From NCBI GenBank assembly GCA_027077795.1, contig JALWTT010000006.1, forward strand, positions 310,001 through 374,000: a DNA stretch of 64,000 bases, in the 5' to 3' direction. A model generated the notes under the pieces. It did not search any database. It was not told the DNA's origin and worked only from the letters and a program-made list of their open reading frames with translations. The translations under genes were made by a program, and so were the position numbers. The stretch is from Thermotogaceae bacterium (GTDB lineage: Bacteria > Thermotogota > Thermotogae > Thermotogales > Thermotogaceae). Below, piece by piece: positions 145 through 61,051 of this stretch (positions are counted from its first letter, which is position 1; every line of letters begins with the position of its first letter).

Positions 145-545
145 ATATTCACCTCTTTCAGAAGGACGTATATTCCTTTCCCTTCAGCATGTGTAACATT
201 CCCTTTCTTTATCCATCCTTTAACGACCGCTTTCCTTCTGTTGAATTCTATCACCTCAGCTGCTAGCTCGTATTCCTCCCCCACCTTTACTGGCTTTTTG
301 AATCTCACCGTTAGTTCCGCCGTTACCCCCACGCTCCTGCTGATGGATCCTATAGCGTACGCCATAACCTCGTCGATTGCGGCGGATATAACTCCACCAT
401 GCACGATTCCTCTCCATCCTTGATGTACTTCCTTGAAGATGACTTCTGAGCGAGCTTTACCACTGCTGAAAGATATGTTCAGCATTAATCCGCACTCATT
501 CTTTTTGCCACATCCGAAGCACATATCCGTGAACTCGAGCTTCAC
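141..545 (-). CDS. PaaI-like hotdog thioesterase
   Basis: About 134 residues, the normal size for a single hotdog domain. The N-terminus carries a CFGCGKKNECGL motif and the centre GIVHGGVISAAIDEVMAYA, the hotdog helix with the HGG turn seen in PaaI-type acyl-CoA thioesterases. The expected activity is hydrolysis of an acyl- or aryl-CoA; the substrate is unknown. An ATG 21 bases upstream (566) is possible, but an AGGAGGTG ribosome site at about 552-559 sits ideally before the GTG at 545, which directly follows the stop of the ABC permease gene, so GTG is chosen. It overlaps yfcE by 4 bases. Confidence 0.8.
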   Translation of the reverse strand: MKLEFTDMCFGCGKKNECGLMLNISFSSGKARSEVIFKEVHQGWRGIVHGGVISAAIDEVMAYAIGSISRSVGVTAELTVRFKKPVKVGEEYELAAEVIEFNRRKAVVKGWIKKGNVTHAEGKGIYVLLKEVNI

Positions 546-546
546 T

Positions 547-1749
547 TCACCACCTCCTGAAAGCATATCTTCCGCTGAGCACCGCTGAGGTGAAAAACCC
601 CAGGCTCCAAAGCAGTGTTATTACCATCTCCCGAGAGATTTTCACCCCAAGAAAGAGTAGTTCTTTCCTGAAAATCATGTTGGCGTTGTATATAGGACTT
701 GCTGTTATTAATCCTCTGGAGATCTTGGGCATTTGACTAACGGCGACGAAATTACCACTGGCCAGTATGGATATGGTTAGGAAAAATATCATGAGTAGGT
801 TTGCGGTCGATCTGTTGGGAGAGAAAACTGAGATCAAGAACCCCAGCGAAGCGTATGTGAGGGATATCATTGCTATGACGGGAATCCTAATGACTGGGTC
901 TATCACCGTTCTGCTCATGTAGAACGCTATTACATAGGATATCGAAGATGCCAGGATACCTATCGTGGTATAGACGAGAATGTTTGAGATAGCATAGAAA
1001 TACGGGCTTATTTTACCCATTTTGTACATTTCCATTATATTTCTCTCCTCGTCATCTATGACCGAATGAATTGAAAGTGTCAAGATTGCCAGGACTCCGG
1101 AGAGAAGAATAACCGCCGGAGAGAGGAGGACATCGAAATTCAACTCTTTTGATTTTTGAGGTTCCCATAGGTAAGCTACAGATGGCGGGGAAAAGGATCT
1201 CTCCGTCGCCGGTTTTTTCGAAACGAAAGCAGGTGAAGGGTAACTCTTGTAGCTGAAAAGCATTCTCCTTATACATGATCCTCCCATGGACTTCGTGGCG
1301 CCGAGGTCTACGAATATCCCACCTGCCAGATCTTCGAAAAGCGATTTCAGTATAGAGTATGCTCCTATGGACAACTGCAGATCATGAGGGCTGGGTATGT
1401 ACCAAACCTCTGACTTCTTTCTCGAGTACACCTTTTCCATAAATCCATTCGGTATCACTAAAACTGCTTCGATATCGCCGTTTATTAACTTCTGCAAGTA
1501 ATTTGACTTGGTTACTTTTTCCAGATAAGCGCCTCTGAAAAACCTCATGAGAAAGGTTACCGTTATAACACTTCTCTCGTCTCTGTCTAGATTGAGTATC
1601 CCTATGTTCATACTTTGAATGTTTAAATTTATGTAAAAAAGTATTGCAAGTGCGGAAATAGCAAATGGAGATATTAAAAGTACTATGAGAACAGAGGATC
1701 TTTTTAAAAGTCTGGAAATCTCCTTAGACATTATCGCGATCAATTCCAT
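547..1749 (-). CDS. ABC-2 type permease (NatB/YhaP-like), orphan
   Basis: A 400-residue membrane protein. One N-terminal helix (about residues 18-38) is followed by a roughly 180-residue extracytoplasmic region, then a cluster of five or six helices in the C-terminal half. This is the topology of ABC-2 transporters with a large extracellular loop, as in NatB. No ATP-binding partner lies beside it: the neighbours are tmk upstream and a thioesterase downstream, so the ATPase must be encoded elsewhere or be shared. GGAGGTGA lies just before the ATG; an internal ATG (MSKEIS) six codons in is an alternative. It overlaps the end of tmk by 26 bases. Substrate unknown. Confidence 0.75.
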   Translation of the reverse strand: MELIAIMSKEISRLLKRSSVLIVLLISPFAISALAILFYINLNIQSMNIGILNLDRDERSVITVTFLMRFFRGAYLEKVTKSNYLQKLINGDIEAVLVIPNGFMEKVYSRKKSEVWYIPSPHDLQLSIGAYSILKSLFEDLAGGIFVDLGATKSMGGSCIRRMLFSYKSYPSPAFVSKKPATERSFSPPSVAYLWEPQKSKELNFDVLLSPAVILLSGVLAILTLSIHSVIDDEERNIMEMYKMGKISPYFYAISNILVYTTIGILASSISYVIAFYMSRTVIDPVIRIPVIAMISLTYASLGFLISVFSPNRSTANLLMIFFLTISILASGNFVAVSQMPKISRGLITASPIYNANMIFRKELLFLGVKISREMVITLLWSLGFFTSAVLSGRYAFRRW

Positions 1750-2347
1750 TCACCTCCAACATCTTGGAGAAAAAGCCCTTGATATCATCCCAAATTTCTT
1801 CCACACTTTTCCTACCGTCTATGGGTATATATCCATGCTCCTTGGAAAGTTTGAGATACCCTTCTCTAACTTTCTTCAAAAAGCTTTCTTTCTCCATTCT
1901 GTCCGAATAACTCTTTCTCCTCATAGCTAGCTCCACAGGTATATCTATGTAGAAAATCACATCGGGTTTTAGCCCTTTTGTTGCTACATTGTTCCCGTAT
2001 TTGACAAAGCTAATATCTAGTCCCCTTCCGTATCCCTGATATGCCAACGAGGAGTCGGCAAATCTATCAGCTATGACAAACTTCCCCAATTTGAGAGATG
2101 GTATTATTATCCTTTGGGTGAGTATGCTTCTTGAAGCTAAAAATAAGAAAAACTCCGCCTCTGGCGTGAGGTCTGAGCTTTTATCCAGTAATATCCTTCT
2201 TATTCTTTCTCCTTCTGGGGTTCCTCCCGGTTCTCTGACAAGGACACACTCCTTGCCAAGGGATTCTATGTATTTACACAACCGCTTAGCTTGGGTACTC
2301 TTTCCACTACCATCTATTCCTTCGAAGGATATGAAAAATCCTTTCAT
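1724..2347 (-). CDS. tmk: Thymidylate kinase
   Basis: Phosphorylates dTMP to dTDP with ATP, an essential step of dTTP synthesis in the cytoplasm. At 207 residues it has the standard bacterial length. The P-loop GIDGSGKST is at residues 10-18, the substrate-binding DRFADSSLAYQG motif is in the middle, and a lid-type RRKSYSDRME segment follows. The start codon overlaps the stop of the Mrp subunit gene by one base (TAATG). Its position inside a Mrp/polysaccharide operon has no obvious functional logic and probably reflects operon merging. Confidence 0.95.
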   Translation of the reverse strand: MKGFFISFEGIDGSGKSTQAKRLCKYIESLGKECVLVREPGGTPEGERIRRILLDKSSDLTPEAEFFLFLASRSILTQRIIIPSLKLGKFVIADRFADSSLAYQGYGRGLDISFVKYGNNVATKGLKPDVIFYIDIPVELAMRRKSYSDRMEKESFLKKVREGYLKLSKEHGYIPIDGRKSVEEIWDDIKGFFSKMLEVNGIDRDNV

Positions 2348-2973
2348 TAGATAATCCCCCTGTGTCTGATGAACTCACGAGTTATGATCCAAGTGCCCGC
2401 CATGACTTTGAAGTATATCAGGAAATTCTCCAAAGGTATCAGGCTTTTCTCGTTAAAAGTCATTGTCAGTATCGAAACAGCCACTATCACACCTAACAGA
2501 ATTTTCTCCACCGCTGGGATTTGAAATCTCTCGAATTCTCTCTCGAATTTTTCCACTCCCCTTGATATTCCCATGAGTAATAGGGAAGTTCCTCCAACTA
2601 CTCCGGCTGTGAATCCCCCTCCAGGATAAATGTGTCCAGTTGCGGCTAGGTAAATCGATGAAATTGCTATGAAAAAGCCCATAAAATTTGAAACAGACGT
2701 ATACACTTTGTCTGTAATTCTTTCCCCTTTTACTCCTCTGGGGATCGATATTCCAACAACAACTAGTGAAAAAACGAGAACCTCAAAGATCGTATCATAG
2801 GCTCGTTGAAAGAGATATACAGAAGTTGTTAAGTTTACAACGCCGCTTTCTTTGAAAATTTCAGGTGCTCTTGATAGGGAGTGCCCCAAATTTTTGAACG
2901 AATAGGTAAACACAACAAGTGCCGAAATTAAGGCTATCAGTACTTCAACCCGTATATTTCTTGACGATTTCAT
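2347..2973 (-). CDS. mrpB: MbhE-MrpB fusion, Na+/H+ antiporter subunit B
   Basis: 208 residues with several hydrophobic helices. Residues about 40-75 (AYDTIFEVLVF segment) match the MbhE region, equivalent to the C-terminal end of MrpA. Residues about 95-190 contain HIYPGGGFTAGVVGG, the MnhB/MrpB signature with the PGGGF turn. One protein therefore combines MrpA C-terminal (MbhE-like) and MrpB (MbhF-like) parts. In Mrp complexes this region forms part of the sodium/proton path in the cytoplasmic membrane. The gene overlaps the preceding MbhD-like gene by 29 bases and is the last antiporter gene of the operon. Confidence 0.8.
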   Translation of the reverse strand: MKSSRNIRVEVLIALISALVVFTYSFKNLGHSLSRAPEIFKESGVVNLTTSVYLFQRAYDTIFEVLVFSLVVVGISIPRGVKGERITDKVYTSVSNFMGFFIAISSIYLAATGHIYPGGGFTAGVVGGTSLLLMGISRGVEKFEREFERFQIPAVEKILLGVIVAVSILTMTFNEKSLIPLENFLIYFKVMAGTWIITREFIRHRGII

Positions 2974-3580
2974 CCAAAATACCCTCCTCTATCAGACTCT
3001 TCAAAAAAGAATCGAACTCACTCTTGTTCGATAAGATGTTGTAACTCTCTTCTTCCCATTTCAATATCTTTTTGAAATCCTCCTTAGACATAGAGAGAAA
3101 GTCCTTCTTTTCACCGTTTGAGAGCAAGAAGACTTTGGTTTTGATTATCGGAATTCCTTTTTTGACTATTGGGCCGCATCCAATATCGATATACCCTGAT
3201 TCTACTGACCGGATTAAATCCTCAACTGAACTAAATTTTACATACTCAACACTGTAACCACGCTTTTCAGCGAATTTTTCAACGATTTCTTTCATTATTC
3301 CATCCATTCCCCATATGTGTTCTTCTATCAAAAACTTTGTGGGTACGTATCCAACTCTCAAAGAAACAGGGCTTTTCAACATCAGAATGTACACGAATGT
3401 GGTTAAAAGGCTTCCGAGCATAGCTTCTGCCAAGGCGACATCGGGAGCCATAAAAGAAAGGTAAGTTGCAACCGCAAAAACACTCAGTGCGAGTCTTAAG
3501 AGAACCGCCCTGGTGGGATTCCTTTGAATTATCACAAATATCGATAATATGACCATGGTCCACGAGAATATCTCCCTCAT
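2945..3580 (-). CDS. MbhD-like antiporter subunit fused to a solute-binding-protein-like domain
   Basis: 211 residues in two parts. Residues 1-70 hold membrane helices with the MbhD/DUF4040 pattern (LSFMAPDVALAEAMLGSLL), equivalent to part of the MrpA C-terminus. Residues about 73-211 are soluble and read like a family-3 periplasmic binding protein lobe: LRVGYVP start, GIMKEIVEKFAEKRGYSV, and SVESGYIDIGCGPI. This tail is absent from ordinary MbhD or MrpA proteins. It is shorter than a complete binding protein (about 220 residues), so it may be one lobe or a degenerate form. Inference: it faces outside and senses or binds a small ligand. It overlaps mrpG as ATGA. Confidence 0.75.
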   Translation of the reverse strand: MREIFSWTMVILSIFVIIQRNPTRAVLLRLALSVFAVATYLSFMAPDVALAEAMLGSLLTTFVYILMLKSPVSLRVGYVPTKFLIEEHIWGMDGIMKEIVEKFAEKRGYSVEYVKFSSVEDLIRSVESGYIDIGCGPIVKKGIPIIKTKVFLLSNGEKKDFLSMSKEDFKKILKWEEESYNILSNKSEFDSFLKSLIEEGILDEIVKKYTG

Positions 3581-3840
3581 CTTTTCGACCTAGAACTGTA
3601 AGCTTTTGCAAACGTGTGCGTGATAACTGGCGCCCAGATGGCTAGAAATGCCAGAGAGAGCAAACATTTTATCGTGCCGAAATTTTCAATGGCGATGCCT
3701 ATGAGAATCATTGCGGATCCGGACAGATCCGATGTTCCCATTCTGTGAAGCTTGACCAAGAATTTCTTTTCCAGAGCACTCATCAGGGTCCCCACTATCA
3801 TGAGAATGATTCCGATCCAGATGAACACGTCTCCTATCAT
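3577..3840 (-). CDS. mrpG: Na+/H+ antiporter subunit G
   Basis: 87 residues with three hydrophobic helices. The central LHRMGTSDLSGSAMILIG segment is the MrpG/MnhG/PhaG signature, and the C-terminal APVITHTFAKA corresponds to the family PVATHALARAA motif. It is a small membrane subunit of the Mrp-type multisubunit cation/proton antiporter. Start and stop codons overlap both neighbours by four bases (ATGA), so all subunits are probably translated in a coupled way. Confidence 0.85.
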   Translation of the reverse strand: MIGDVFIWIGIILMIVGTLMSALEKKFLVKLHRMGTSDLSGSAMILIGIAIENFGTIKCLLSLAFLAIWAPVITHTFAKAYSSRSKR

Positions 3841-4076
3841 TCCATCCTACTCCTCATCAGAAATATGAGAATCAGCACAATTCCCGCTCCGGATGCCATC
3901 AGATACATCAAAGTGAGATCCAAGAGGTATTCTTCGTGTACCTCATAGGCTATCAAAACTGATAAGATTGCCACTTTGGTGCTCAAAGATGAAAGCCCCA
4001 ACAGCTTGCTCCACATGCTTCTTTCAGCTAGGATAATTAGAGTGAGAAGAAGTGCTACAACAGCTCCGTACATCAT
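3837..4076 (-). CDS. mrpF: Na+/H+ antiporter subunit F
   Basis: 79 residues, almost entirely hydrophobic with three predicted helices. The pattern matches MrpF/MnhF: an N-terminal helix, a short loop, a second helix, LLDLTLMYLMASGAG and a basic end. It is identified mainly by size, hydropathy and position between subunits E and G, which is the universal E-F-G order of Mrp and Mbh operons. Two consecutive ATG codons begin the gene; the first overlaps the stop of subunit E as ATGA. Confidence 0.8.
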   Translation of the reverse strand: MMYGAVVALLLTLIILAERSMWSKLLGLSSLSTKVAILSVLIAYEVHEEYLLDLTLMYLMASGAGIVLILIFLMRSRME

Positions 4077-4453
4077 TTTCTCACCATCTTATGTATATGG
4101 TGCTCAGTTTCGTCACTCATTACAACGAGAGAGTCTGGCGTTAGTGTTATCGCGAGGGTCTCAGCGATTCCACCTTCGTTTGGTTTTATCTCCCATTTTT
4201 CATGGTTCAAAAATGGAAGAATGAAGCCTTTTAGGATTGCAAATGGAATACTGATTAGGATTGACAGTGATATATTTAGAAATTCTCTCCAGCTTGGTTT
4301 GAAAACCTCATAGACAGCGACAGATGCAGCCGCTATCAAAATAGATGTAAGGTTAATTCCATTCAGTGCTATGGACAGGAGAAAACCAATCAGGGCACTC
4401 AGAAGAATAGGATCACCCCCGCTAGAAATGCCAAACTGAACGCTACATTCCAC
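4073..4453 (-). CDS. mrpE: Na+/H+ antiporter subunit E
   Basis: Up to 126 residues. Two N-terminal helices are followed by the cytoplasmic MnhE domain with ETLAITLTPDSLVV, the family ITLTPGTL motif, and a final HHIHKMV. The only ATG (4453) lies 55 bases inside mrpD and has a weak ribosome site. The family N-terminus aligns better with a start near ILLSALIG, where a GGGGGTGAT site precedes ATT (4408) and CTG (4402); a rare start codon is therefore possible. It sits between mrpD and mrpF as in other Mrp operons. Confidence 0.85.
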   Translation of the reverse strand: MECSVQFGISSGGDPILLSALIGFLLSIALNGINLTSILIAAASVAVYEVFKPSWREFLNISLSILISIPFAILKGFILPFLNHEKWEIKPNEGGIAETLAITLTPDSLVVMSDETEHHIHKMVRK

Positions 4454-5682
4454 TCGATTCTTTCTAGAAATAGCACTCGATCATTTCTAATTTTAAGAAA
4501 TATTCCCAGAATAGCAAGGCTAGATAAGAGGGACTTTAAGGAAAAATACGGGTAAAGGAGCAATAGGGGAAAGATGGAGACTGGGGAGAAGTTCCATCCT
4601 TTTGACTTGACTTTTGAGATCCTTGAAAACAGAGGCGTTGAGGATATTATCGTCCCGATGAATAATATAGGGGAGTGAAAAAGGCCTTCGGCAAATCCGC
4701 CGAGTGTGAAAGGAAACCCCGATAAAGATGAGGTTGCTACAAGCAAAGCCACCATATTTGGAATAGAGATCTCGTCACGCTTCACATCGGAGCTTCTTAG
4801 AAACAAAAAGGTCTTTGATACAGCGTGGGACATGAAGTATGCCGCTGGGTTGCCGATTGAGAGCATTGAGGTGATGTGGACCATGGTACTACCAGCTAAA
4901 ATTCTTTTGTAACTCTTAGAGATAAGGGGAACGATACTCCCAAGTATGGCCAAGTACGGGGCAACAGTTGACACGGCTGTCAGGTTTGCGAAATGTTCCA
5001 TTCTCCACAGAGGTAAGATGGTTCCTCCTATGAACGATCCTGAGAACAAAGCCGATAGTTTGTCTGAAACACTAGAGTGAAATTGTGGAAGCCACATTCC
5101 CAAACCGAAAGTTCCCGCTCTCATAAGAAGCCCTGTGGTTATGAAAGCCCCTGGGAGAGGATCAATGGGGTTTGAAAGCGAGAAATCTCCAAACTTCTGA
5201 TAAACCATGGCAATTCCAACCAGGTAAAGACTCGCTCCCGTACCACTTACGATGAGGTATTTCAAAGTTGCCCATAGGGTTCTTTTATCCTTTTTGTCTA
5301 TCGCCATCAGTCCAGCTTGGATTGAAAGCACTTCCGTCAGAACATATATGTTGAAAAGATCAAAGCTCATGAACATAGCAGAGAGTGTGAGAAGAGAGGT
5401 CAGGATTAGAAATGTTTCTTTGAAACTCTGTTCTTTTTCCAGATTTTCCAAGATTATCATGAGAAATGAAACGGATACGGCGATCATGAATATCTTTGAA
5501 TCTCTGTCGAATTTCAAGGAGACCCCAAATTTTCCAAGAATCTTGATGTGGTATTCACCTGAAAATGCGGCAACGATAAAGGTAAAGATGGGATATGCCA
5601 GCAGCATGGGTTTTCTCATAGGTCTAAGCATAGCTAAAGGAGTTGCCGCTAGGAGTACAAGTGTTGCGATGTGGGCCCTCAA
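4399..5682 (-). CDS. mrpD: Na+/H+ antiporter subunit D (NuoN/MrpD-like)
   Basis: 427 residues with about 12-14 hydrophobic helices, somewhat shorter than typical MrpD (about 490). The conserved helix-5 acid is present (NIYVLTEVLS), as is the helix-7 lysine (ATLKYLIVSG). The MWLPQFHSSVSDKLSALFSG segment corresponds to the conserved WLPDAH-SALLSG block. The usual lysine just before that block is replaced by arginine (LLMRAG). The protein should carry protons across the inner membrane. This is the only large antiporter-like subunit here; no MrpA/NuoL-like homologue is present. The TTG start overlaps the mrpC stop as TTGA. Confidence 0.87.
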   Translation of the reverse strand: MRAHIATLVLLAATPLAMLRPMRKPMLLAYPIFTFIVAAFSGEYHIKILGKFGVSLKFDRDSKIFMIAVSVSFLMIILENLEKEQSFKETFLILTSLLTLSAMFMSFDLFNIYVLTEVLSIQAGLMAIDKKDKRTLWATLKYLIVSGTGASLYLVGIAMVYQKFGDFSLSNPIDPLPGAFITTGLLMRAGTFGLGMWLPQFHSSVSDKLSALFSGSFIGGTILPLWRMEHFANLTAVSTVAPYLAILGSIVPLISKSYKRILAGSTMVHITSMLSIGNPAAYFMSHAVSKTFLFLRSSDVKRDEISIPNMVALLVATSSLSGFPFTLGGFAEGLFHSPILFIGTIISSTPLFSRISKVKSKGWNFSPVSIFPLLLLYPYFSLKSLLSSLAILGIFLKIRNDRVLFLERIEWNVAFSLAFLAGVILFF

Positions 5683-6002
5683 CCTTTCATCATCCTTTCC
5701 ATGTCGTCGGAATCCTCTCGTTTCACCTTTTCCACTAACAAAGAAACGATGGATACTGATAGAGAAAGAATGGAGAAGCCTATCACTATGGCTGTTATTA
5801 TCACAGCTTGTGGAACAGGATCTGCATATGCCACTTCTCCTGTGAATATAGGAGGCTTCGAGGAGGGTGAATAGGACATGGAAACATACAGTAAAACTGT
5901 ACCGACGTTCATCACTTCTACTGCCAGTATCTTAACGAATATATTCTTGTTCAGTGTAATTCCCATCATTCCCACCAGTATCATCGCTAGCGATGCGGTC
6001 AA
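5679..6002 (-). CDS. mrpC: Na+/H+ antiporter subunit C (NuoK-like)
   Basis: 107 residues with three helices and the highly conserved YADPVPQAVIITAIVIGF motif of MrpC/MnhC/MbhG. The first gene of the antiporter block, it begins with TTG overlapping the stop of the GH130-like gene (TTGA); GGTGAGAGG lies just upstream. The subunit order here (C-D-E-F-G-MbhD-MbhE/B) is an Mbh-like split with no full-length MrpA. Confidence 0.9.
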   Translation of the reverse strand: MTASLAMILVGMMGITLNKNIFVKILAVEVMNVGTVLLYVSMSYSPSSKPPIFTGEVAYADPVPQAVIITAIVIGFSILSLSVSIVSLLVEKVKREDSDDMERMMKG

Positions 6003-6943
6003 CCTCTCACCACCGAGATTTTCTCAAAATCGCTCGTGAACACTCCTATGGCGTAGTCACTCACTCCACCTATCCATATCAGTTTACCTTTATATACGAG
6101 CAGGCCACATCCGAATATGACAAGTGCCCTGTCTCCATACTCTTCAAGTAAACCTCTTGGGCAGAGCTTGTATCTACTGAACACGAAATTTCCGGGGCTC
6201 TTTATGAAAGCGAGGCCATTCCTGTAAGACAAATCGCTTTTCATAACTGCATGCCATCCAACAAGCCAACCCTGGTTAACCTTAACGGCATTTGTAGACC
6301 ATCCCAGCTTCTCCTCGGAGTCCTCAGGTTCTCTGACTTTTTTCAAGTCTCTTATGACCAGGTTTTCAAGATCCGCCACTCCCATCCAGAGGGTGATGGG
6401 CTTACCTTCAAAGTGTGGTCTTGTGAGTATAATCGCCTCGTTTCCTTTGAAGTCGAGAAAGGTGGAATCTTTGTTGGATTTCGGGTAAAAAGGGCCGTTT
6501 CCTATGTCCACAGAAAAGTATCCCAATCTTTTGAGACTTTTCAGATCGAATTCCGCCAACCCCAAGTAGTCCTTCCGCTCATCGAAATTTTTATCAAACC
6601 CCTTTGCTGTGTACAGTATCCACACTTTACCGTTAACAAGGTGTACCCTGGGATCCTCCACTCCAAGCAGATCTTCTCTGCCTTCAGGCCACATGATGAT
6701 TTCAACGCCTATTGAATCCGGTATGTTCCCATAGATTAGCTCATCGGCTTTCATTTTGAAATACCCTATTGAAGATGTGTACTTGTAGTAGTCGAAAACC
6801 AGTCTGGGAAACACGTGAATTTCATCTCCTATTAAGATCGCACCTGGGTTGAAAACCGCGACAGGTTTCCTCGGATAATTCAGGATACGAAACCTACTTG
6901 GGGAGAGAATGATTCGCTTCTTGAAGACATCATCACATTTCAC
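5999..6943 (-). CDS. GH130-like glycosidase/phosphorylase family protein
   Basis: 314 residues, a five-bladed propeller type protein. FNPGAILIGDEIHVFPRL is at about residues 31-48, GVEDPRV at 94-100 and WSTNAVKVNQGWLVGWHAV later, all landmarks of the GH130/DUF377 family. Members cleave or phosphorolyse beta-mannosyl linkages, but specificity cannot be read from the motifs. There is no signal peptide, so it acts in the cytoplasm. The GTG start overlaps the stop of the upstream glycoside hydrolase as GTGA. Its place between polysaccharide-export and antiporter genes suggests a link to surface glycan turnover. Confidence 0.72.
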   Translation of the reverse strand: MKCDDVFKKRIILSPSRFRILNYPRKPVAVFNPGAILIGDEIHVFPRLVFDYYKYTSSIGYFKMKADELIYGNIPDSIGVEIIMWPEGREDLLGVEDPRVHLVNGKVWILYTAKGFDKNFDERKDYLGLAEFDLKSLKRLGYFSVDIGNGPFYPKSNKDSTFLDFKGNEAIILTRPHFEGKPITLWMGVADLENLVIRDLKKVREPEDSEEKLGWSTNAVKVNQGWLVGWHAVMKSDLSYRNGLAFIKSPGNFVFSRYKLCPRGLLEEYGDRALVIFGCGLLVYKGKLIWIGGVSDYAIGVFTSDFEKISVVRG

Positions 6944-8046
6944 TTTTCTATCCTCCTTTCGAAAACCTTCTTGTTTTCATCGAATCTTTCAACACTCAAC
7001 GGCATCAAGCGGTAAAAATGGTTATGAATATCAAGCAATTTGATTTCATCGGATCTGTTCACAGCTATTAAGGATCTCCCCAAGATCACCCAATCCACGT
7101 CCTTCGACAGTCCGTATTCTTTGAGATTCCTGGGAATACCCTTGAAAACTTGCAGGAATTCATATACGGGCCTTTCAACTATTTCGCCGTTTTTGAACAT
7201 TAGCATAGAAAGTGAGGAGTCGTTGATTGTACTCCATGTGGAAACATTCCAAATGTTCAAAGCGATAGCCCTTAGATAGACTGATATCATCCATAAAGCT
7301 GCGTACGGGCCCTCTGGGGAAAGATACCCGTGGAAATTCCAATTCCAGCTTAGATTTGTTTCTGTCAAAGCTATGGGAAGATTCAATAGTTTCCTCAGAT
7401 TCAAAATTTCTCTGTAAAACTTGTCCAAATCTCTGAAGATCTCTTTGACGTTCCTCACATTGTTGAAGGGATATCTGTGTATTGAGAAAACATCCGGATT
7501 TAAATTCAAAAAAGGAGTTAGAAGCCTTGCGTTTCTCCAGACAACAGTTATATCTGGCAACATGACCATATCACCTTTTCTATCAAACCTCTTGAGAAAT
7601 TCCCTGTATTTTCTCATCACTTCTTTAAGGCTCTCTTTTTTCACCCAACTGAATGAAACTCTTTGATATATATCCGGTTCATTTCCGATGGACCATATCA
7701 CCCTTCCATTGTACATTTTTCTAACTTTACTCACGAATGAGAGCATTTCATCTACGCTGTGGCTGTTCAGAGGGATTTGAACTATCGGAGTTGCGTCAAG
7801 ATCATCGCAGAGCCGGAAGAAATCCTCTAATACCCATGAATTTATTCCATTGGCATCGTACCACAGCCCGCCTATTCTTATCGTGTCTATTTCCAATGCT
7901 TTTAACTTGTCCTCGACCATTTTCTTCTCTTCTTGGGACAATTTTTCAAAATACCAATAATTAATGCCGAAGAAATTTCCACCAATTGAAAACCCCAAAA
8001 TAGAGATCAACAAAATCACTGGAAGAAAGCGGATATCTCCCACCAC
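6940..8046 (-). CDS. Membrane-anchored clan-A (beta/alpha)8 glycoside hydrolase
   Basis: About 368 residues. A hydrophobic N-terminal segment (residues 8-22) acts as anchor or signal peptide, followed by a TIM-barrel hydrolase. VIWSIGNEPDI carries the probable acid/base Glu123 and IALTETNLSW the probable nucleophile Glu229, the two-glutamate pattern of clan GH-A (families 5, 39, 79 and others); the exact family is unclear. The start is uncertain: GTG codons at 8046 and 8043 lie inside the preceding gene, and a further GTG begins the hydrophobic segment. By analogy with PslG-type enzymes in exopolysaccharide clusters it could trim the exported polymer; this is inference. Confidence 0.7.
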   Translation of the reverse strand: MVGDIRFLPVILLISILGFSIGGNFFGINYWYFEKLSQEEKKMVEDKLKALEIDTIRIGGLWYDANGINSWVLEDFFRLCDDLDATPIVQIPLNSHSVDEMLSFVSKVRKMYNGRVIWSIGNEPDIYQRVSFSWVKKESLKEVMRKYREFLKRFDRKGDMVMLPDITVVWRNARLLTPFLNLNPDVFSIHRYPFNNVRNVKEIFRDLDKFYREILNLRKLLNLPIALTETNLSWNWNFHGYLSPEGPYAALWMISVYLRAIALNIWNVSTWSTINDSSLSMLMFKNGEIVERPVYEFLQVFKGIPRNLKEYGLSKDVDWVILGRSLIAVNRSDEIKLLDIHNHFYRLMPLSVERFDENKKVFERRIEK

Positions 8047-9446
8047 CCACCTAAAAGATAACTTCTATCAGCACTTTTGAAGAATATGTGAAGCCCATTC
8101 TTGAAGGAGATGACGGTTTTCAGAAGAATGTGAGTTTTCACGTCGTTTGAAAGTTCACTTTTGTACTCGGTTTCTATAGTAGCGGGGCCTTTCAGAAGGA
8201 GAGCAATTTCAGATTCCACGTTCACCCTTCCTGAAAGGTGTGTGTACATCGAGAGCATCTGGGCGTCCGGCCCGTACTCGAACCCAAGTGGGTAGTCCAC
8301 TATTGCTCTTGATCCAACCGGAAAATTGGACAAGAAGACGTACCTTGCGTTGAACTTCAGATACGGCAGGAACGTGTTGTACATCCATCGCGTGGTCTTC
8401 ACGTATGAGAATTCTATGTACCCAGGAAGATTGAAGATTTTCATGGTTTTGATCAATCCGGTCGTCAGGCCAAAAGCGGTTGGTTTCACGTCTTCTGGTT
8501 CCGTCAGAGGAATCGCCAGGTCGTCGAGAGCAAATTCGAGGTAAAAATTCAATCCCTTTGCAAAGGTCCATTCGAAACCTGTATCTAGCATTGAGTTTGT
8601 GTAGCCCTCGTTGAAATTGTTGTGAAGAATTGACATGGGGTCGATTGAAAAAAGGTCCAGTGCTTTCCCTCCAACGATCGTGAGCTCTCCTATGTACAGG
8701 GACATAGAATCGGATATCGAAAGGTCAACCCTGTGTGCGATGAGGCTCTTCACCTTTTCAAAGTACGGAGAGAGCGGATCGGCATTTACAGGACGAGTGC
8801 TAAGTTGTATTTTTTCCTCTTTTTCACTGAGAACGGGATTGATAGAGGCGAGAGTGACTGTATACCTAAACTTTTCCTTTTCCAGAGAATATGTGATGTT
8901 ATCTAAATATGGGAACACACCTGAAATCGCTACTGGGTGGTTCCAATAGCCCCACCGAATTTTTCCCCTTCCGATGAAAAGTGATTGGTTGTCGAACCTG
9001 AAAGCCAGATAAGATATGTATGGAAAGCGGGTATCAAAGGAGAAATACGGATAAGTTGGAATGAAGAAAAAGCTGGTGCTTGGCCATTTTCTTAGTGCCA
9101 TGTATTCTTTCCCACTAAAGAGCTCTGTATGGATCGAGACTTCGCCCATTTCCACGTGAAAAATTGTTTTAAGTGATGGGGGTATATCGTCAACGATGTA
9201 AAATATATCAGGTTCGTATATCACATCCCACCAGCTTGAGCTTGAAAAAGAAAGGTCAGTCAAAAAATAATTCGGAATTATGGAAAGTCTCGGAGAGCAT
9301 GCCCCTTCCTCTAAAGCTGGAAAGATATCTTGTGGCACTTTTCCAGAGTGTATTTGCTTATAAACATCCGCTGGAATGAAGACCGCCCTTATTGAAAAGG
9401 ACAATATGCTAATTATGATGAACGCTAAAATGAATTGACTTCTCAA
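8016..9446 (-). CDS. Wzi-like outer-membrane beta-barrel protein
   Basis: 476 residues with an N-terminal signal peptide (FILAFIIISILSFSIRA). The remainder is rich in alternating aromatic/hydrophobic strands without helices, as in outer-membrane barrels. The GRGKIRWG segment and the later HRVDLSISDSMSLYIGE followed by GGKALDLFSIDPMS resemble the Wzi capsule-assembly family. Wzi is an 18-stranded barrel that fixes capsule polysaccharide to the cell surface. The TTG start is supported by AGGAAGGTG seven bases upstream. It follows the SLBB export gene by 4 bases, supporting a role in surface polysaccharide attachment. Confidence 0.6.
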   Translation of the reverse strand: MRSQFILAFIIISILSFSIRAVFIPADVYKQIHSGKVPQDIFPALEEGACSPRLSIIPNYFLTDLSFSSSSWWDVIYEPDIFYIVDDIPPSLKTIFHVEMGEVSIHTELFSGKEYMALRKWPSTSFFFIPTYPYFSFDTRFPYISYLAFRFDNQSLFIGRGKIRWGYWNHPVAISGVFPYLDNITYSLEKEKFRYTVTLASINPVLSEKEEKIQLSTRPVNADPLSPYFEKVKSLIAHRVDLSISDSMSLYIGELTIVGGKALDLFSIDPMSILHNNFNEGYTNSMLDTGFEWTFAKGLNFYLEFALDDLAIPLTEPEDVKPTAFGLTTGLIKTMKIFNLPGYIEFSYVKTTRWMYNTFLPYLKFNARYVFLSNFPVGSRAIVDYPLGFEYGPDAQMLSMYTHLSGRVNVESEIALLLKGPATIETEYKSELSNDVKTHILLKTVISFKNGLHIFFKSADRSYLLGGWWEISAFFQ

Positions 9447-9450
9447 CTGC

Positions 9451-12400
9451 TCACCTTCCTATGATTCCAGATATATCGTTGTAAAGCCTTATGGAACTAT
9501 CGACAAATCCGATCATAGGTGTGATCAGCGAGATCATTTCGTTAATCGACATCATAGGATTGTCCGGAACGAAGACTATATCTCCAGGTTGGAGCTCGGG
9601 ATTTCTTCCACCCTTCTTACCGTTTATCCAGCTCATATCGTAAACCTCCACAACCCCTTTTACTCCTCCTCTGAACACGTACACTTTACTTGAGATTGCG
9701 GTTTTCGTGAATCCTCCAGCCCTCATGATAACCTCGAGAAGTGTTGTTTCTTTATCTATCATAACGACCGTGGGATTTCTAACTGCACCCAGTACATACA
9801 CTCTGTTTAAAGATCTTGCCGGGACATAAACAACATCTCCACCGACGACTTTTACATTCAAGAGCTGGTTGTAGTCTAATTTTAAATTCTCTCTCTGACC
9901 GTTTTTCCTTATCAACACCACCTCTCGCTTCGATTCCCAGCCGTTCAAACCACCGGAAAGTGAGAGGACTTTCAGGAGGTTTTCTTCCTTATCACTTGTA
10001 AAAATTGCACCTGGTTTTGTTACGTCTCCAAAGACGTAGACGAAATTATCCGGCAGTTCGTCGAATATCAAGACATCTCCATCGTTTAGCTTAAAGTCTG
10101 GTATATCGTTAAGACCGAAATTCACAACTTCTATTTCCTTTCCTCTCAAAATTCTCACTGTTCCGGATCCTCTTGGGATACCACCAGCTAGAGCGAAGAA
10201 ATCTTTCAAATTAGAGCCCATTGGTAATACATACCGCCCCTGTTTCACTTCCCATCCAAAGGCATAGACGTTGATAACCTCTGGGTCCAACCTCACGAAA
10301 TCTTGATCGTGAAACTCAAAGCTTAAGTCTTCAGGCTGAGTCTTGTAGGATATAACTTTTTCGTATACGATTTTCCCGTTTCTCAGCACCGAGATTTCAT
10401 ATTTGAGGTTTTTATCGGAGAATTTGACCATTCCCACCTTTGACAGGAAGTTCACCATGGATGGATCTTCATCCTGTCCAAACACGACAATCTTCGATCC
10501 GCCCACTCTACTATACACATACACTCTGATGTTCTTCTTGAGCCTTATCCACACAACTTCTCCATCTGATATGTTTCCCTTTATCTCTTTCACATTTTCA
10601 GAGCTAATGTGGAGTTTTGCCAAAAGCGATTCTTTAGTTATTCTCTCCCAGTTTTCGAATGAAACTACGGTGGAGATATCGCCGTTCACATAAACCACTT
10701 TTTTGAATCTCGGGGTGATGAGAACGAAATCGCCATCCTTTAGTGGAAAATTCACCTTACCGTTGACTACATCCTCTGGGGATAAGAGTCTTTTCTCACC
10801 GTTTCTTATGACTTCTATCTTTTTCACGTCTTCCGGATTTATTGGGAGAATCCCGTACCGAAGCAGGACATTTTTGATGTCTTCACCTGGCTTTTTAAGG
10901 CCAGCTTTGATGACTTTTGAAGAGTATATGTATACTTTCCCGAAAGCGTAAGGGGTGATGTAAACGTAGTCGTTGCTCTGCAAATTGAGATTTGCTTTTC
11001 CATCGAGAACATCCTTCAAGTCGAAACTGAGTGTGGTACCCTCGTGACTCACGAATACAACAAGGTTCTCATCGCTCAGTCCCAATTTGTACACGAGGGT
11101 TTTCAGGTCAGCTCTTTCCAGCCCTGAGAAATTAACCTCCCCACTTCTCACACCGTTCACATAAACCTTTATAGGGTTAACGGTGCTTATATATATTGTG
11201 TCCTTGTCCAAAAGGGGGACATCCGGAAGTTTTGAAAAGTCGTTTACAACATACCTTGATTCTCTCCCATTTCTTATCAGCTTAAACTCGATACTCCTGC
11301 CATTTGCTATAGAAAGACCTATCATAGCGGGTAATTTCTTCAAAGTGGGATTATCCGATTCCGAAACGGTGACCTCTCTTGAGAGTTCCCCCATTATGTA
11401 AAGTCTAATCGTTCCAAATTTGTCCACCCGAATTACATCTCCGTCTTTGAGCTCTATTCCCTTCATTCTGTCAACTTGATCTACTGTCAGAAGAATGCTT
11501 GTTCCATCTCTTGAGAGCTCTATGGACTTTGTAATCCTTGGGTCGAACACTACACCTGAATTCACCAGAACATCGAACAGCGTATCCCCTTCCTTTATGT
11601 ATTTAAATCCTTGCCTTACCCCATTTCCGTAGATCAAAACTTCTCTTGGGCCATATGTATAGATCATGTCTCCTGGCTTTAGCAGAGGGTTGTATGCTTC
11701 GCTTCCCGTTTTCAGATACCTCCAGTAGTTGACATTTATCTTGTTTTTTCCACGGATGATCACAACGCTCTCCGGGTTTATTTTGGTTTCCTTGCCGCCA
11801 GCGATGGACAGAACGACTGAGAGGCGTCTCTCATCAGCATTAAGGGTTGAGAGATCGAATCTGCCGGTTATCATCCCATATATGTACACATACTCTGGCA
11901 TTTTTTTAACTACGATAATGTCCATGTCCCTGAGGGGCTTCTCCGGTAGATCTTCGGGATTTTCAACCACGAAATCTTCCACATCGCCGTCACGAACTAG
12001 CTTAATATTCCACTTAGTGCTTTTGGAGAAAGAGATGCCGATGTTCGATATGACGTTTCTCAGAGTAGGATGGCCTCTTTCAGATAAGGTGATCCTTTTT
12101 GAAATGTCTCCGATTACATACACATCGATTTTTCTGTAGGCTGTTACGCTCACCATATCCCCATCCTTCATTCTGAAATCTGCGAGTTCGTTGAGATCCT
12201 CCAATCGAAAAATTCGGGTTTTGTCATCACGGAAAACTTTTATCTGCTTTATGAGATCTGGATTCATGGAAGCTCTAGCTTGTGCAAGGATGTTCAGTAG
12301 TGTCGTGTTTTCATTTATCTGATAAAGTCCTGCTGCAACATCATCTCCAAACACTCCAACATACATTGGCTGTGGCGTGAAGACTATATCCCCTCCTTGA

Positions 12401-12912
12401 AGAACGGGGTTGTATTTCTCATCACCAGTTTTTAGGTATTCGGAAAAATTCACATTGATGACTTGTCCATCTCTTATGATTTTCACATTCTCTATCGTGT
12501 GATCTTCTGTCAAATTTCCCTGCTCTGATCTTACAAGGGCTAGGACAGAGGATAACTTTCTTTGCTCTTTGTTCAGCGTCGATATATCATAGGCACCGCT
12601 TACCACCCCGTGAAAATAAACCCATTCTGGATGAGGCTTCTCCACATAAACGGAAACTATCGATGATGGTAGGAACCTATCGACCTTTTTTTGGATCATG
12701 TCTTGTATCTCCTTTGGGTTTTTCCCTTCAACTTTCACATACCCTATGTAAGGAAGTGATGTGAAGCCATCAAGGTCAACGCTCACCGTTTTGTTCACAA
12801 CTTCTCCAGATTGCAAATATACATCTATTGATAAGACATCTTCAGGTTGAATTTTATAGGCTTCGAGAAAAGCGGTGAATGCGATGAGAATCAGGAAAAT
12901 GAATTTTTTCAA
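9451..12912 (-). CDS. Giant SLBB-repeat polysaccharide export protein (Wza-like)
   Basis: About 1153 residues with a signal peptide (FIFLILIAFTAFLEA). A Poly_export domain (YKIQPEDVLSIDVYL onward, to about residue 93) is followed by about 13 consecutive SLBB-like units, each roughly 75-85 residues with a VYVxG-type start and a DGDxVxxxP-type end. Wza has only two to three such domains. Units 1-3 and 4-6 form a duplicated three-unit block. No C-terminal barrel helix is seen; the end is amphipathic. The start is TTG 12912, which overlaps the upstream stop as TTGA after GAGGTGG; a GTG three codons earlier is less likely. Probable role: a periplasmic conduit for exopolysaccharide. Confidence 0.85.
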   Translation of the reverse strand: MKKFIFLILIAFTAFLEAYKIQPEDVLSIDVYLQSGEVVNKTVSVDLDGFTSLPYIGYVKVEGKNPKEIQDMIQKKVDRFLPSSIVSVYVEKPHPEWVYFHGVVSGAYDISTLNKEQRKLSSVLALVRSEQGNLTEDHTIENVKIIRDGQVINVNFSEYLKTGDEKYNPVLQGGDIVFTPQPMYVGVFGDDVAAGLYQINENTTLLNILAQARASMNPDLIKQIKVFRDDKTRIFRLEDLNELADFRMKDGDMVSVTAYRKIDVYVIGDISKRITLSERGHPTLRNVISNIGISFSKSTKWNIKLVRDGDVEDFVVENPEDLPEKPLRDMDIIVVKKMPEYVYIYGMITGRFDLSTLNADERRLSVVLSIAGGKETKINPESVVIIRGKNKINVNYWRYLKTGSEAYNPLLKPGDMIYTYGPREVLIYGNGVRQGFKYIKEGDTLFDVLVNSGVVFDPRITKSIELSRDGTSILLTVDQVDRMKGIELKDGDVIRVDKFGTIRLYIMGELSREVTVSESDNPTLKKLPAMIGLSIANGRSIEFKLIRNGRESRYVVNDFSKLPDVPLLDKDTIYISTVNPIKVYVNGVRSGEVNFSGLERADLKTLVYKLGLSDENLVVFVSHEGTTLSFDLKDVLDGKANLNLQSNDYVYITPYAFGKVYIYSSKVIKAGLKKPGEDIKNVLLRYGILPINPEDVKKIEVIRNGEKRLLSPEDVVNGKVNFPLKDGDFVLITPRFKKVVYVNGDISTVVSFENWERITKESLLAKLHISSENVKEIKGNISDGEVVWIRLKKNIRVYVYSRVGGSKIVVFGQDEDPSMVNFLSKVGMVKFSDKNLKYEISVLRNGKIVYEKVISYKTQPEDLSFEFHDQDFVRLDPEVINVYAFGWEVKQGRYVLPMGSNLKDFFALAGGIPRGSGTVRILRGKEIEVVNFGLNDIPDFKLNDGDVLIFDELPDNFVYVFGDVTKPGAIFTSDKEENLLKVLSLSGGLNGWESKREVVLIRKNGQRENLKLDYNQLLNVKVVGGDVVYVPARSLNRVYVLGAVRNPTVVMIDKETTLLEVIMRAGGFTKTAISSKVYVFRGGVKGVVEVYDMSWINGKKGGRNPELQPGDIVFVPDNPMMSINEMISLITPMIGFVDSSIRLYNDISGIIGR
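11179..12627 (-). repeat. Tandem duplication of a three-SLBB unit (protein level)
   Basis: Residues about 99-341 and 343-581 (numbered from the GTG at 12921) of the export protein repeat with a period near 242 residues. VYFHGVVSGAYDISTLN pairs with VYIYGMITGRFDLSTLN, YLKTGDEKYNP with YLKTGSEAYNP, and KRITLSERGHPTLRN with REVTVSESDNPTLKK. The copies have diverged, so the duplication is old. The remaining seven units do not keep this order clearly. Confidence 0.75.
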
Positions 12913-14816
12913 GCCAACCACCTCACTTTGTTGAAAACAACTCCGAAGATCTTATCCGAAAATTTTTTCAGCATTTCTCTGGTAACCATCTTGTTAGAGA
13001 CCATTTCCGAGATGACTAAGAGCAATGCATCCGAACTGTCCAGAAGCAAGGAGAAATCCATCATTCTTATCTCGTAGGAAGGCGAGTCTATCAGAACTAT
13101 GTCGTAGTCATTCGGAATGCTCACTTCGGAAATGTTCACACCAGTTCCAGCTGGTATGAAAAATAGGTCTTTGACAATTACCGGCGTTAAGATCCCATTG
13201 CTCAGTCCCCTAGAAGTCGCAAATTTCAGTTTCGACGAGAGGGTTTTCTTGTCGATATCTCCGTCAACGAGGAGGACCTTCTTCCCAAGAGAGGAGAAAG
13301 TCTCAGCTAATCTGAGTGTTATCTCACTTTTTCCCTCTCCGTTGCTGGGACCACCCACAAGTACCCTTCCAGTGAATCTTCTGAGGTCTGATGCTATCTT
13401 CTGAGAATCCTCGAGATGCCGCAACCTTATAGTGTAGAAATTCTCTATTCCGAGCTCTTTTGAAAAAATGATGTGATCGGTGACATTGGGGTAGGAGGAT
13501 TCCCTCCAGAAGACCAACAGGATCCCCAAAAACAGTCCAATTGATATTCCCACCATGCCTAGAAACAGGGTTGAGGCCTGTTTGGGAACGTGTGTGTACT
13601 CTGGTGGAGAAACAACTGTCACGGGATAAACACTTGAAAGCTGTGATAGCATCGTTTGTATCTGTTGTTGCCAAATAAATGTGAGAAGATTTTTGTAAAC
13701 CTCAAGATCTGTTTTTATCTCCGTGTAGTCCTCCTCGAGTCCTAGTAGCCTGTTTATATCTCCTTCAACCTCTTCCAGCACTTTTCTTCCAACGCTAAGT
13801 TTAGTCTCCAAATTTCTGATGCCCCAGAGGTTTTTGACTATTTTCTCCCCTAGTGTGGAAAAACTGATAGGATTTTCCAGGAGGGATTTTTTGGCTGTTT
13901 CCAGCTTTAACTTCAGGCTCTCGATCTGAGCCTTTGTTTCCTTGACCTTCACATAGCTGTCTAGGTATATCGCACGCAAAGCTGCAAGTTGGCTTTCTAG
14001 GTCGTTTATCTCATTGTTGAGGTTCGTAACCGTTTGGAAGTCTCTATAAACGGGTGTCGTGGCTAGTTCCTTGAAAAGCTGATTGGTTTCCTCTTTTGCT
14101 TCGCTCAACGCGGTTCCGGATGCTACCAGAGATGTCATCAACTGATACTCAATGGTTTTTAAGTTCAGAAGTTCATCTTCCAGTGATATGACACCGTTTT
14201 TCCTTTGAAACTCGACGAGCTCTGACAGTTTCTTACGAAATTTCTCATAGGTCTTCTCCCTCTTTTCATCTAAAAACTCCAATTTTTTCTGAATACTTTG
14301 GGATGCCATAGTCTCAACGGTGCTCTTGAACTCCTTTATGATGCTACTTATCAGGTCATATCCGAGCTTTGGATCTTTAGACTTGTAGCTGACAGATATG
14401 AGAGAGGATTTTCCAAGTGTGGAAATGTCTAAGTTTTTCATCACAACTCTGTAGGCGATCTCCACGAGGTCATCTTGCGTGTAACCCATTCTTTCATACC
14501 TTTCTATGTCCTTTTTACCGAGAATTCTACCCACGAGTGCGAGCTTCTTTATAACCCCTTCCACTATCTTTCGACTCCTCATTATCTCTATGTAATCGTC
14601 GACATTTCCACCACTACTCACTGGTATGGATATTCCACCAAAACTGAAGCCAGTAGATTTAGTTCCTTCGACCTTGACAACCGCACTCACCTCGTATTCT
14701 TTCGGCAGATATTTGTAAACGGCAATCACGAGAATAGGTGTAATCGCAACAGTTACCAAGAACAACCATTTCCATCTTTTGAATACTCTCATCATGTCTG
14801 ATAAGGTGAGATCCAT
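12909..14816 (-). CDS. Wzz/BY-kinase-like chain-length regulator with C-terminal ATPase
   Basis: 635 residues. The N-terminal helix (about 17-35) and the Wzz motif are followed by a long periplasmic coiled-coil region, a second helix near 415-437 (LFLGMVGISIGLFLGILLVF), and a cytoplasmic CpsD/CapB-type ATPase from about 485. Walker A is GGPSNGEGKSE, A' is VLLVDGD and Walker B is DIVLIDSP. The C-terminal tyrosine cluster of classical BY-kinases is absent (the tail ends FGVVFNKVRWLA), so autophosphorylation may not occur. It should control polymer length and coupling to the SLBB export protein. It is the first gene of the minus-strand operon; AGGAGGTGG precedes the ATG. Confidence 0.87.
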   Translation of the reverse strand: MDLTLSDMMRVFKRWKWLFLVTVAITPILVIAVYKYLPKEYEVSAVVKVEGTKSTGFSFGGISIPVSSGGNVDDYIEIMRSRKIVEGVIKKLALVGRILGKKDIERYERMGYTQDDLVEIAYRVVMKNLDISTLGKSSLISVSYKSKDPKLGYDLISSIIKEFKSTVETMASQSIQKKLEFLDEKREKTYEKFRKKLSELVEFQRKNGVISLEDELLNLKTIEYQLMTSLVASGTALSEAKEETNQLFKELATTPVYRDFQTVTNLNNEINDLESQLAALRAIYLDSYVKVKETKAQIESLKLKLETAKKSLLENPISFSTLGEKIVKNLWGIRNLETKLSVGRKVLEEVEGDINRLLGLEEDYTEIKTDLEVYKNLLTFIWQQQIQTMLSQLSSVYPVTVVSPPEYTHVPKQASTLFLGMVGISIGLFLGILLVFWRESSYPNVTDHIIFSKELGIENFYTIRLRHLEDSQKIASDLRRFTGRVLVGGPSNGEGKSEITLRLAETFSSLGKKVLLVDGDIDKKTLSSKLKFATSRGLSNGILTPVIVKDLFFIPAGTGVNISEVSIPNDYDIVLIDSPSYEIRMMDFSLLLDSSDALLLVISEMVSNKMVTREMLKKFSDKIFGVVFNKVRWLA

Positions 14817-59757: not shown

Positions 59758-59787
59758 TTGCGAAGAGAAGAGAATGGATGATATAAT
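59758..59787 (+). promoter_or_regulatory. Promoter of the Omp-alpha gene
   Basis: TTGCGA (59758), 18-base spacer and TATAAT (59782). The start is predicted near 59794, so the ATG at 59774 cannot be used and 59828 is confirmed. Confidence 0.65.
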
Positions 59788-59827
59788 CCAGCTTAGTGAA
59801 AACTCCATGAAGGGGGGAGGTATTAAT

Positions 59828-61051
59828 ATGAAGAAGGCAGTGGTAATACTGTTAGCGGTTTTAGTGGTTGCGGCTTTCGCACTGGATTTCAAAGATGTCC
59901 CCAAGAGTCATTGGGCGTACCCATACATCGAGAAGCTTGTCAATGCAGGGATAGTAACGGGCTACCCAGATGGAACTTTTAAGGGGAAAAACGCCGTTTC
60001 TAGGTACGAACTAGCCGTTCTCAGTGGAAGGCTTTATGATCGTGTTCTGTCCGAGATCAAACCTGTCAAAGACGATGTCACGAAGATCAAAAGCGATATC
60101 TCTAACTTGAAGATGCTCGTCTCCGGGATATCGTCTTCTCTCACCGAAGGGCTCGCTGACACCAAGAAGACAGTTTCCGAACTCAAGAAGAGTGTAGACT
60201 CACTTAACAATTCGATATCCTACTTCTATGATCAACTTGATTCTGTAAACAACCAACTTGACACCATAAGGGACGCTTTCTTCGTTTTGAAAGGAGAAGT
60301 CGTTTCCAAGGATAACTTCTCAGCGTATCAGAAGAAAGTGGATGGAACCCTCAGCCAATACCATGATGACATCTTTATGCTCAAAAAGAGAACTTCTAAG
60401 CTCATCGAGAGAGTTTCGGTTCTTGAGTTCAATTCCTCCAAAAATTCGAAAGCTATCCCAGCCCTTCAGAGTGATGTTGAGAGCTTGAAAGGAAAAGTGG
60501 AGAAACTTGAGGCCTATAAGCTCGAGACAATCAGCAATATGGCTCTCGTCAAGCAGAATGTAAGTTCTCTTCAAAAGGGTTATTCCAAGCTTTACAACAA
60601 CATCAAGGATCTCAACAGCGCCCTTGACTTCCAAGTTAAAACCCTTTCCAAGAAGATATCCCTTGTTGATAGCAAAGTGAACACCACCATTTCAGATCTT
60701 AGAAGTTTCAAGGATTCCATGGTAAACATGTCTCTTGGACTCAGCAATAGGGTTGGAAAGCTTGAAACAACGGTTGAAGGCTTGAAGGGAAATGTCGATA
60801 GCGTCAATGAAAAACTCTCGTCTGCCAGCAAGCAGATTGATACTCTGAAAGATTCTGTAAGCACTCTTGTGTCAAAGCTTGAAACGGTTAGGGAAGACCT
60901 TGAAAGCGTCAAGAAAACCGTTAATACGAACAACGAGAAGATAGAGGAAATAGCTAAGAAGGCTAGTGGAGCGAATACTCTGGCTGTTATCGCACTGGTT
61001 CTCGCCGCTGTTGGAATAGGAATAGGAGTTTACGCTGCGGTAAAGCCATGA
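59828..61051 (+). CDS. Omp-alpha: SLH-domain coiled-coil toga spacer protein
   Basis: 407 residues, close to the 400 of T. maritima Omp-alpha. A signal peptide (VVILLAVLVVAAFA) is followed by one SLH domain (about 20-75, FKDVPKSHWAYPYIEKLV, GYPDGTFKGKN, SRYELAVL), then about 300 residues of coiled coil with serine/leucine heptads. A C-terminal helix (LAVIALVLAAVGIGIGVYAAV) embeds in the outer membrane. It bridges cell wall and toga as a long rod. AGGGGGGAGG precedes the ATG. The Omp-beta gene follows with its own promoter. Confidence 0.92.
   Translation: MKKAVVILLAVLVVAAFALDFKDVPKSHWAYPYIEKLVNAGIVTGYPDGTFKGKNAVSRYELAVLSGRLYDRVLSEIKPVKDDVTKIKSDISNLKMLVSGISSSLTEGLADTKKTVSELKKSVDSLNNSISYFYDQLDSVNNQLDTIRDAFFVLKGEVVSKDNFSAYQKKVDGTLSQYHDDIFMLKKRTSKLIERVSVLEFNSSKNSKAIPALQSDVESLKGKVEKLEAYKLETISNMALVKQNVSSLQKGYSKLYNNIKDLNSALDFQVKTLSKKISLVDSKVNTTISDLRSFKDSMVNMSLGLSNRVGKLETTVEGLKGNVDSVNEKLSSASKQIDTLKDSVSTLVSKLETVREDLESVKKTVNTNNEKIEEIAKKASGANTLAVIALVLAAVGIGIGVYAAVKP

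Follow-up and report, generated by a model that had tools for sequence, protein, structure and literature searches.

The window analysed here, a stretch of 64,000 nucleotides from a Thermotogaceae bacterium (phylum Thermotogota), encodes a Wza-type export protein (OPX) in which a single Poly_export domain is followed by thirteen SLBB units, and across the phylum the number of these units rises with the length of a coiled-coil spacer protein of the cell envelope. The domain make-up, the wall-to-wall arrangement of the units, their tandem duplications, the gene linkage and the co-variation of unit number with spacer length are established by the analyses below. We consider it likely, with a probability of about 0.74, that OPX is a long conduit of stacked rings that has been lengthened to bridge a wide periplasm; the ring stoichiometry, stacking along a single axis, passage of the polymer and periplasm width as the selective cause remain inferences.

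Domain architecture of the OPX protein

The OPX gene (9451..12912, minus strand) encodes 1,153 amino acids comprising a signal peptide, a Poly_export domain, 13 SLBB units and a C-terminal helix. Its open reading frame runs from 12912 to 9451, starts with TTG downstream of an AGGTGG motif and shares four bases with the stop of the preceding co-polymerase gene. Residues 1-18 (12859..12912, minus strand) form an SPI-type Sec signal peptide without a lipobox cysteine or any lipoprotein signal, and the mature chain opens directly with the Poly_export domain (residues 18-90; 12643..12861, minus strand), whose PF02563 match (E 3e-16) exceeds the curated Pfam cut-off and which a profile search aligned to its Wza equivalent, domain D1. 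A lipobox was also sought in the relatives of OPX and matched in only one of 74 full-length proteins, upstream of the likely start; its absence would make sense for an N-terminus located well away from the outer membrane. No second Poly_export protein was found in the genome, OPX being its only one. Neither GfcC (PF06251) nor Wza_C (PF18412) is among the Pfam matches of the query, and relatives with 18-20 units gave only weak GfcC matches, no stretch of which passed alone. The chain ends in an amphipathic helix (residues 1123-1152; 9457..9546, minus strand), which appears in the AlphaFold2 model and is covered by a phmmer alignment reaching into the Wza helix. Its hydrophobic moment of 0.36 was attained by 1.4% of shuffles, and this model-predicted segment is a possible outer-membrane helix like that of Wza. 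Judged from sequence alone, OPX is a secreted Wza-type protein, class 1-like and of extreme length.

Pfam passes just two to three SLBB stretches in OPX (three for PF22461, two for PF10531). An SLBB profile was seeded with two Pfam-recognised units of the query and iterated on OPX proteins outside the window's own family. With this profile 13 consecutive units were identified, twelve of them at E 3e-6 or better; the remaining one, U9, is partial, covering profile positions 14-59 of 102 at 9.3 bits (E 0.006). The best score in 500 shuffles of OPX was 3.6 bits. The AlphaFold2 model (mean pLDDT 79) likewise displays the beta-grasp pattern 13 times, with U9 short, before the terminal helix at 1123-1152; because its pTM is 0.33, the domain orientations in the monomer are undetermined. 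The possibility that OPX has only two or three SLBB domains was rejected, since Pfam under-detects the diverged units and the trained profile and the model agree on 13. The first-pass annotation, made without database searches, had proposed about 13 SLBB-like units after one Poly_export domain, and this held, with the correction that U9 is half-size. It had also stated that a profile search finding only two or three SLBB domains would refute it, an outcome that Pfam alone would literally meet; the trained profile finds 13.

All units lie on the minus strand. U1-U3 (11890..12636) and U4-U6 (11179..11889) are the two copies of a duplicated block, in which residues 99-335 align with residues 343-575 at 34-35% identity over 237 aa (E 4e-53), and the corresponding units pair with z-scores of 24.6 (U1-U4), 10.8 (U2-U5) and 15.3 (U3-U6). 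The block duplication is also present in a genus-mate (G098). The diverged tandem copy of three units that had been read at residues of about 99-341 and 343-581 was thus confirmed, at 34% identity and E 4e-53. These blocks are followed by U7-U8 (10702..11178), found by the SLBB profile, by U9 (10552..10701), about half a unit by the profile and shortened in the model, and by U10-U13 (9556..10551), found by both Pfam and the SLBB profile, U12 and U13 being the units that Pfam recognises best.

Relation to Wza and other export proteins

The nearest solved proteins to OPX by sequence are Wza, which the fold search also ranks first; together with PF02563 this upholds the Wza-like family assignment of the first-pass annotation. 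In the family profile, which gave E 1e-41 for the chain, Poly_export with U1-U2 aligns to Wza residues 63-280, and U12-U13 with the C-terminus aligns to Wza 170-344, into the start of the outer-membrane helix. OPX thus probably reads as a Wza with about eleven extra SLBB units inserted between its two ends, an inference resting on sequence. It shares with E. coli Wza (PDB 2j58, 9r60) the Poly_export domain, SLBB domains, a C-terminal helix, an adjoining Wzc-like co-polymerase and a Wzi-fold barrel. The E. coli protein, however, has two SLBB domains and is a lipoprotein, whereas OPX has 13 and an SPI-type signal peptide; OPX also lacks the N-terminal extension that reaches the outer membrane, and an octamer has not been shown for it. 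A lipoprotein signal is usual in class 1 OPX proteins (about 78%) without defining them.

OPX proteins with 1-8 SLBB units were already recorded in 2007 (PMC1796856), and class 1 proteins with SLBB(1-14) by Saidi et al. 2022 (PMC9603273). The window's OPX is therefore of a known kind, and the statement that Wza-type proteins have two or three SLBB domains, with which it had first been compared, is too narrow, as up to 14 are recorded (PMC9603273). The class 1 proteins of Saidi et al., long-repeat members included, have the same architecture as OPX; in the sections bearing on it the domains were counted without relation to periplasm width, and Thermotogota proteins reach 20 units by our phylum-tuned profile versus 14 in that survey. 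The KpsD-type class 2 proteins share several SLBB-like domains and the usual SPI signal peptide with OPX but have a GfcC domain, for which OPX gave no match.

Genomic context of the export system

Immediately upstream of OPX lies a Wzc-like polysaccharide co-polymerase (12909..14816, minus strand) with Wzz (PF02706, E 6e-10) and P-loop ATPase (PF01656, E 3e-7) domains, for which NCBIfam matches fall under the cut-off. No C-terminal tyrosine cluster is visible in its sequence, despite the ATPase domain. Relatives of this gene adjoin the OPX gene in many families of Thermotogota. Downstream, a 476-aa outer-membrane beta-barrel of Wzi-related fold (8016..9446, minus strand; AlphaFold2 pTM 0.84) has Wzi (2ynk, E 5e-11, TM 0.53-0.56) as its best PDB match, followed by AlgE; no Pfam or other sequence family matched it. 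Relatives of the barrel were not found in several Thermotogota genomes and elsewhere are often not adjacent to OPX. In the genome that we take to be T. maritima (G091, locus L129 region, G091:C1:674903-676200) the barrel gene appears as two overlapping frames of 221 and 300 aa, and its congeners carry it as one frame of about 480 aa.

The next gene (6940..8046, minus strand), conserved beside the Wzi-like gene in genus-mates, encodes a secreted protein of glycoside-hydrolase-like appearance, a function inferred only from reading the sequence, with no Pfam match. A GH130 mannoside-phosphorylase family protein (5999..6943, minus strand; PF04041, E 4e-59) is the last sugar-related gene of the tight run. 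Genes for MnhC/MnhD/MbhD-like antiporter subunits continue the run directly afterwards (141-6002, minus strand) and are odd neighbours for a polysaccharide operon. Candidates for the flippase Wzx (PF01943, C6:475796) and the polymerase Wzy (PF04932, C15:54517) lie outside the window and are unlinked to the OPX operon.

SLBB number across Thermotogota

An OPX match was obtained in 87 of 103 Thermotogota genomes, and a single Poly_export protein was counted in each of 11 genomes sampled from different parts of the phylum. The Thermotogota OPX proteins carry 5-20 SLBB units, which fill the chain between Poly_export and the terminal helix in an unbroken series without linkers: 8-9 in Petrotoga-like genomes, 11 in Thermotoga, 13 in the window's genus, 18 in Mesotoga-like genomes and 20 in Kosmotoga pacifica. 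Apart from Kosmotoga pacifica, names such as Petrotoga, Thermotoga, Mesotoga and the others given as '-like' are what we take these genomes to be.

For comparison of units within a protein, each OPX was split at the unit borders before BLAST. Neighbouring units are 99-100% identical in three Marinitoga-like genomes (G042, G044 and G039); elsewhere, G077 has a pair at 83% and Fervidobacterium-like genomes have pairs at 65%. Counting the four Marinitoga-like proteins L101, L105, L096 and L099 (G039, G041, G044 and G042, respectively), neighbouring units of 67-136 aa are 93-100% identical, which shows that one or two SLBB units joined the tandem array very recently and that rings are still being gained. 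The SLBB number grows via tandem duplication of internal units. In one Fervidobacterium-like genome (G072) the OPX gene (L027 / L057) is split into two frames of 428 and 665 aa.

Co-variation with the coiled-coil spacer

Omp-alpha of T. maritima, an SLH protein that combines a coiled coil of 316 residues with a C-terminal anchor, keeps the toga about 50 nm away from the cytoplasmic membrane (PMC3387000). The window encodes a protein of the same layout as Omp-alpha/OmpA1 of that species (PMC3387000), which we propose as the ruler partner of OPX: the product of 59774..61051 (plus strand; PF00395, E 1e-14, and coiled-coil matches) consists of an SLH domain, a coiled coil of about 314 aa and a C-terminal hydrophobic anchor. 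Three more SLH-coiled-coil proteins are encoded in tandem elsewhere in this genome (G000:C6:653380-656226), and the spacers of its paralogs are similar in length, at 314-324 aa in the three measured. SLH proteins were collected by profile from the same genomes, and the spacer was defined as the stretch between the SLH domain and the C-terminal anchor. Spacers range from 156 to 497 aa across genomes, and that of T. maritima measured 309-312 residues, in agreement with the literature value. It should be noted that spacer length serves as a proxy for toga width and that a genome has several paralogous spacers.

The number of SLBB units correlates with spacer length at r = 0.91 (n = 62 genomes, uncorrected). 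PGLS on an RpoB tree gave a slope of 18.5 +/- 1.8 aa per unit (lambda 0.875, p 4e-15), and genus-level PIC over 29 genera gave r = 0.876 (p = 5e-10) with 20.6 residues per unit. Converted at 0.1485 nm per residue, the PIC slope is 3.06 +/- 0.64 nm per SLBB unit, or about one Wza ring. None of 2,000 permutations was as strong as the genus-level PIC, whose r stays at 0.86-0.89 when any of five families tested is dropped (0.88 without f9, the family with long proteins). In the sister genera G087 and G089 the two traits differ together: 13 units go with a 307-aa spacer in the former, and 10 units with one of 236 aa in the latter. The comparison of repeat number with toga width that had been suggested at the outset, run here by the spacer proxy, thus yielded a co-variation of about 3.1 nm per unit.

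Two controls behaved differently: RpoB length was unrelated, with non-significant PIC, and the length of the Wzi-like barrel correlated before phylogenetic correction only, its PIC being non-significant. As a separate observation, intact RpoB frames in the window's family f1 (L259-L270) have 1,276-1,301 aa, about 100 aa longer than the 1,146-1,223 aa or so of other families, an excess that represents a lineage-specific insertion. The periplasmic part of the co-polymerase is constant (354-408 aa, one truncated frame apart) and unrelated to either SLBB number or spacer, suggesting that the partner in the inner membrane is of fixed height and that it is the OPX chain which absorbs the difference. 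The idea that the co-polymerase length scales as well was accordingly rejected.

PIC across all species tips gave r of about 0. This result is dominated by two pairs, G069/G071 (RpoB branch 0.001) and G039/G041 (missing paralog), and contrasts on RpoB branches >0.03 give r = 0.81; both the branch cut-off and the genus-level averaging were picked after seeing the null all-tip result. Taken family by family, f3 and f10 show a strong relation, and f1, f2 and f9 a weak one. The window's genus falls about 26 aa under the regression line, and G042, despite its freshly duplicated unit, has a 278-residue spacer equal to that of the 11-unit G045. The coupling is loose among close relatives and over short times. 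No earlier report of a relation between SLBB number and spacer length was found in the open-licence PMC papers searched, and what is likely to be new is the series of ring numbers, reaching 20 across the phylum, together with its quantitative agreement with the tether of the outer membrane.

The absolute sizes were also compared. Wza has a length of 140 A, and its complex with Wzc extends over about 250 A (~25 nm) of periplasm (PMC12881504). Adding nine rings at 3.06 nm to ~25 nm gives ~52 nm for the 11-unit Thermotoga protein, against the ~50 nm reported for Omp-alpha spacing (PMC3387000). A Wza ring is about 3 nm high, a value that fits a length of 140 A made up of three periplasmic rings plus an outer-membrane barrel. 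In six genomes the computed length of tube plus co-polymerase exceeds the spacer by about 4 to 15 nm, which could possibly correspond to the gap between the wall and the inner membrane. The closeness of the slope to one ring per unit argues, though only indirectly, for stacking along the axis. The first-pass idea of a long tube fitting a wide periplasm is in this sense quantitatively supported; the stacking itself is not shown.

Proposed mechanism and alternative explanations

We propose that OPX would serve as the periplasmic and outer-membrane conduit for polysaccharide in the one Wza-type export system that the cell has. Several OPX chains would assemble as rings, as in Wza, with the Poly_export ring facing the inner-membrane co-polymerase, the SLBB units stacked above it as 12-13 further rings and the C-terminal helices forming the exit through the outer membrane. 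Tandem duplication of SLBB units would lengthen the tube while the co-polymerase kept its height, and the proposed cause of this lengthening is that coiled-coil SLH proteins hold the toga tens of nanometres from the wall.

The alternative that survives best is that the OPX tube docks below the Wzi-like barrel, which would be the actual outer-membrane exit (class 3-like). This remains possible: a barrel of Wzi/AlgE fold is encoded next to OPX, PF18412 has no match in OPX, and barrels accompany OPX proteins without an outer-membrane helix (PMC9603273). Against it, the C-terminus of OPX carries an amphipathic helix, about 30 residues long, that aligns with the Wza helix, and the Wzi-like relative was not found in several genomes and is often non-adjacent. 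Wzi is, moreover, a plugged lectin that accompanies Wza, which also counts against a barrel exit. This alternative bears only on the final step and does not conflict with a long tube of stacked rings.

A second explanation, which we regard as unlikely, is that the additional SLBB units act as sugar-binding beads along a flexible chain and that the spacer correlation reflects lineage-wide envelope differences. In its favour, SLBB domains are named for ligand binding (PMC1796856), a long polymer would find more binding sites on a chain with more units, and the AlphaFold2 model leaves the domain orientations unfixed. However, beads on a chain give no reason to expect a slope close to the height of one ring per unit, and they predict neither linker-free units nor a constant co-polymerase height. 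Least convincing is the view that the co-variation mainly reflects shared ancestry or a general expansion of surface proteins (e.g., in Kosmotogaceae-like genomes) with no functional coupling: the near-zero species-level PIC, the weak coupling within f1, f2 and f9 and the uncorrected correlation of Wzi-like barrel length speak for it, but the genus-level PIC (r 0.88, unchanged without f9), the PGLS (p 4e-15) and the Wzi-like and RpoB controls, which lose or lack correlation under PIC, make it very unlikely.

A bolder form of the stacked-conduit reading, towards which we lean only slightly, is that Thermotogota tune the conduit ring by ring, as SLBB units are duplicated in tandem or lost, to the distance that the Omp-alpha coiled coils impose between membrane and wall. 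Both proteins would then be co-evolving molecular rulers, and genome sequence alone would predict periplasm width. No link between Omp-alpha/OmpA1 and an export conduit was found in the open-licence PMC papers searched.

Implications for the Thermotogota envelope

With these genes, a module of the Wza-Wzc-Wzi type is identified in a deeply branching phylum of diderms. TamB was considered as a third ruler and rejected, as PF04357 matched in none of the 103 Thermotogota genomes, though several control diderms have TamB; the lack of a match in this set raises the question of how lipids cross the wide periplasm. How envelope-spanning machines are matched to periplasm width is an open question that has been studied mainly by engineering Lpp in E. 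coli, where Lpp length bears on the flagellum and on stress signalling (PMC8824477). The principle is the same, in that machines spanning the envelope are constrained by how long the outer-membrane tether is; the Lpp case, however, was engineered in one species (PMC8824477), whereas Thermotogota offer a natural co-variation of conduit and tether across a phylum. These bacteria vary the gap naturally, with spacers of 156-497 aa, and the export machine seems to follow by adding rings. This may also provide a rationale for the many-SLBB OPX proteins of other groups. If true, the proposed coupling would give a testable prediction for each sequenced Thermotogota species and possibly a genome-based reading of periplasm width.
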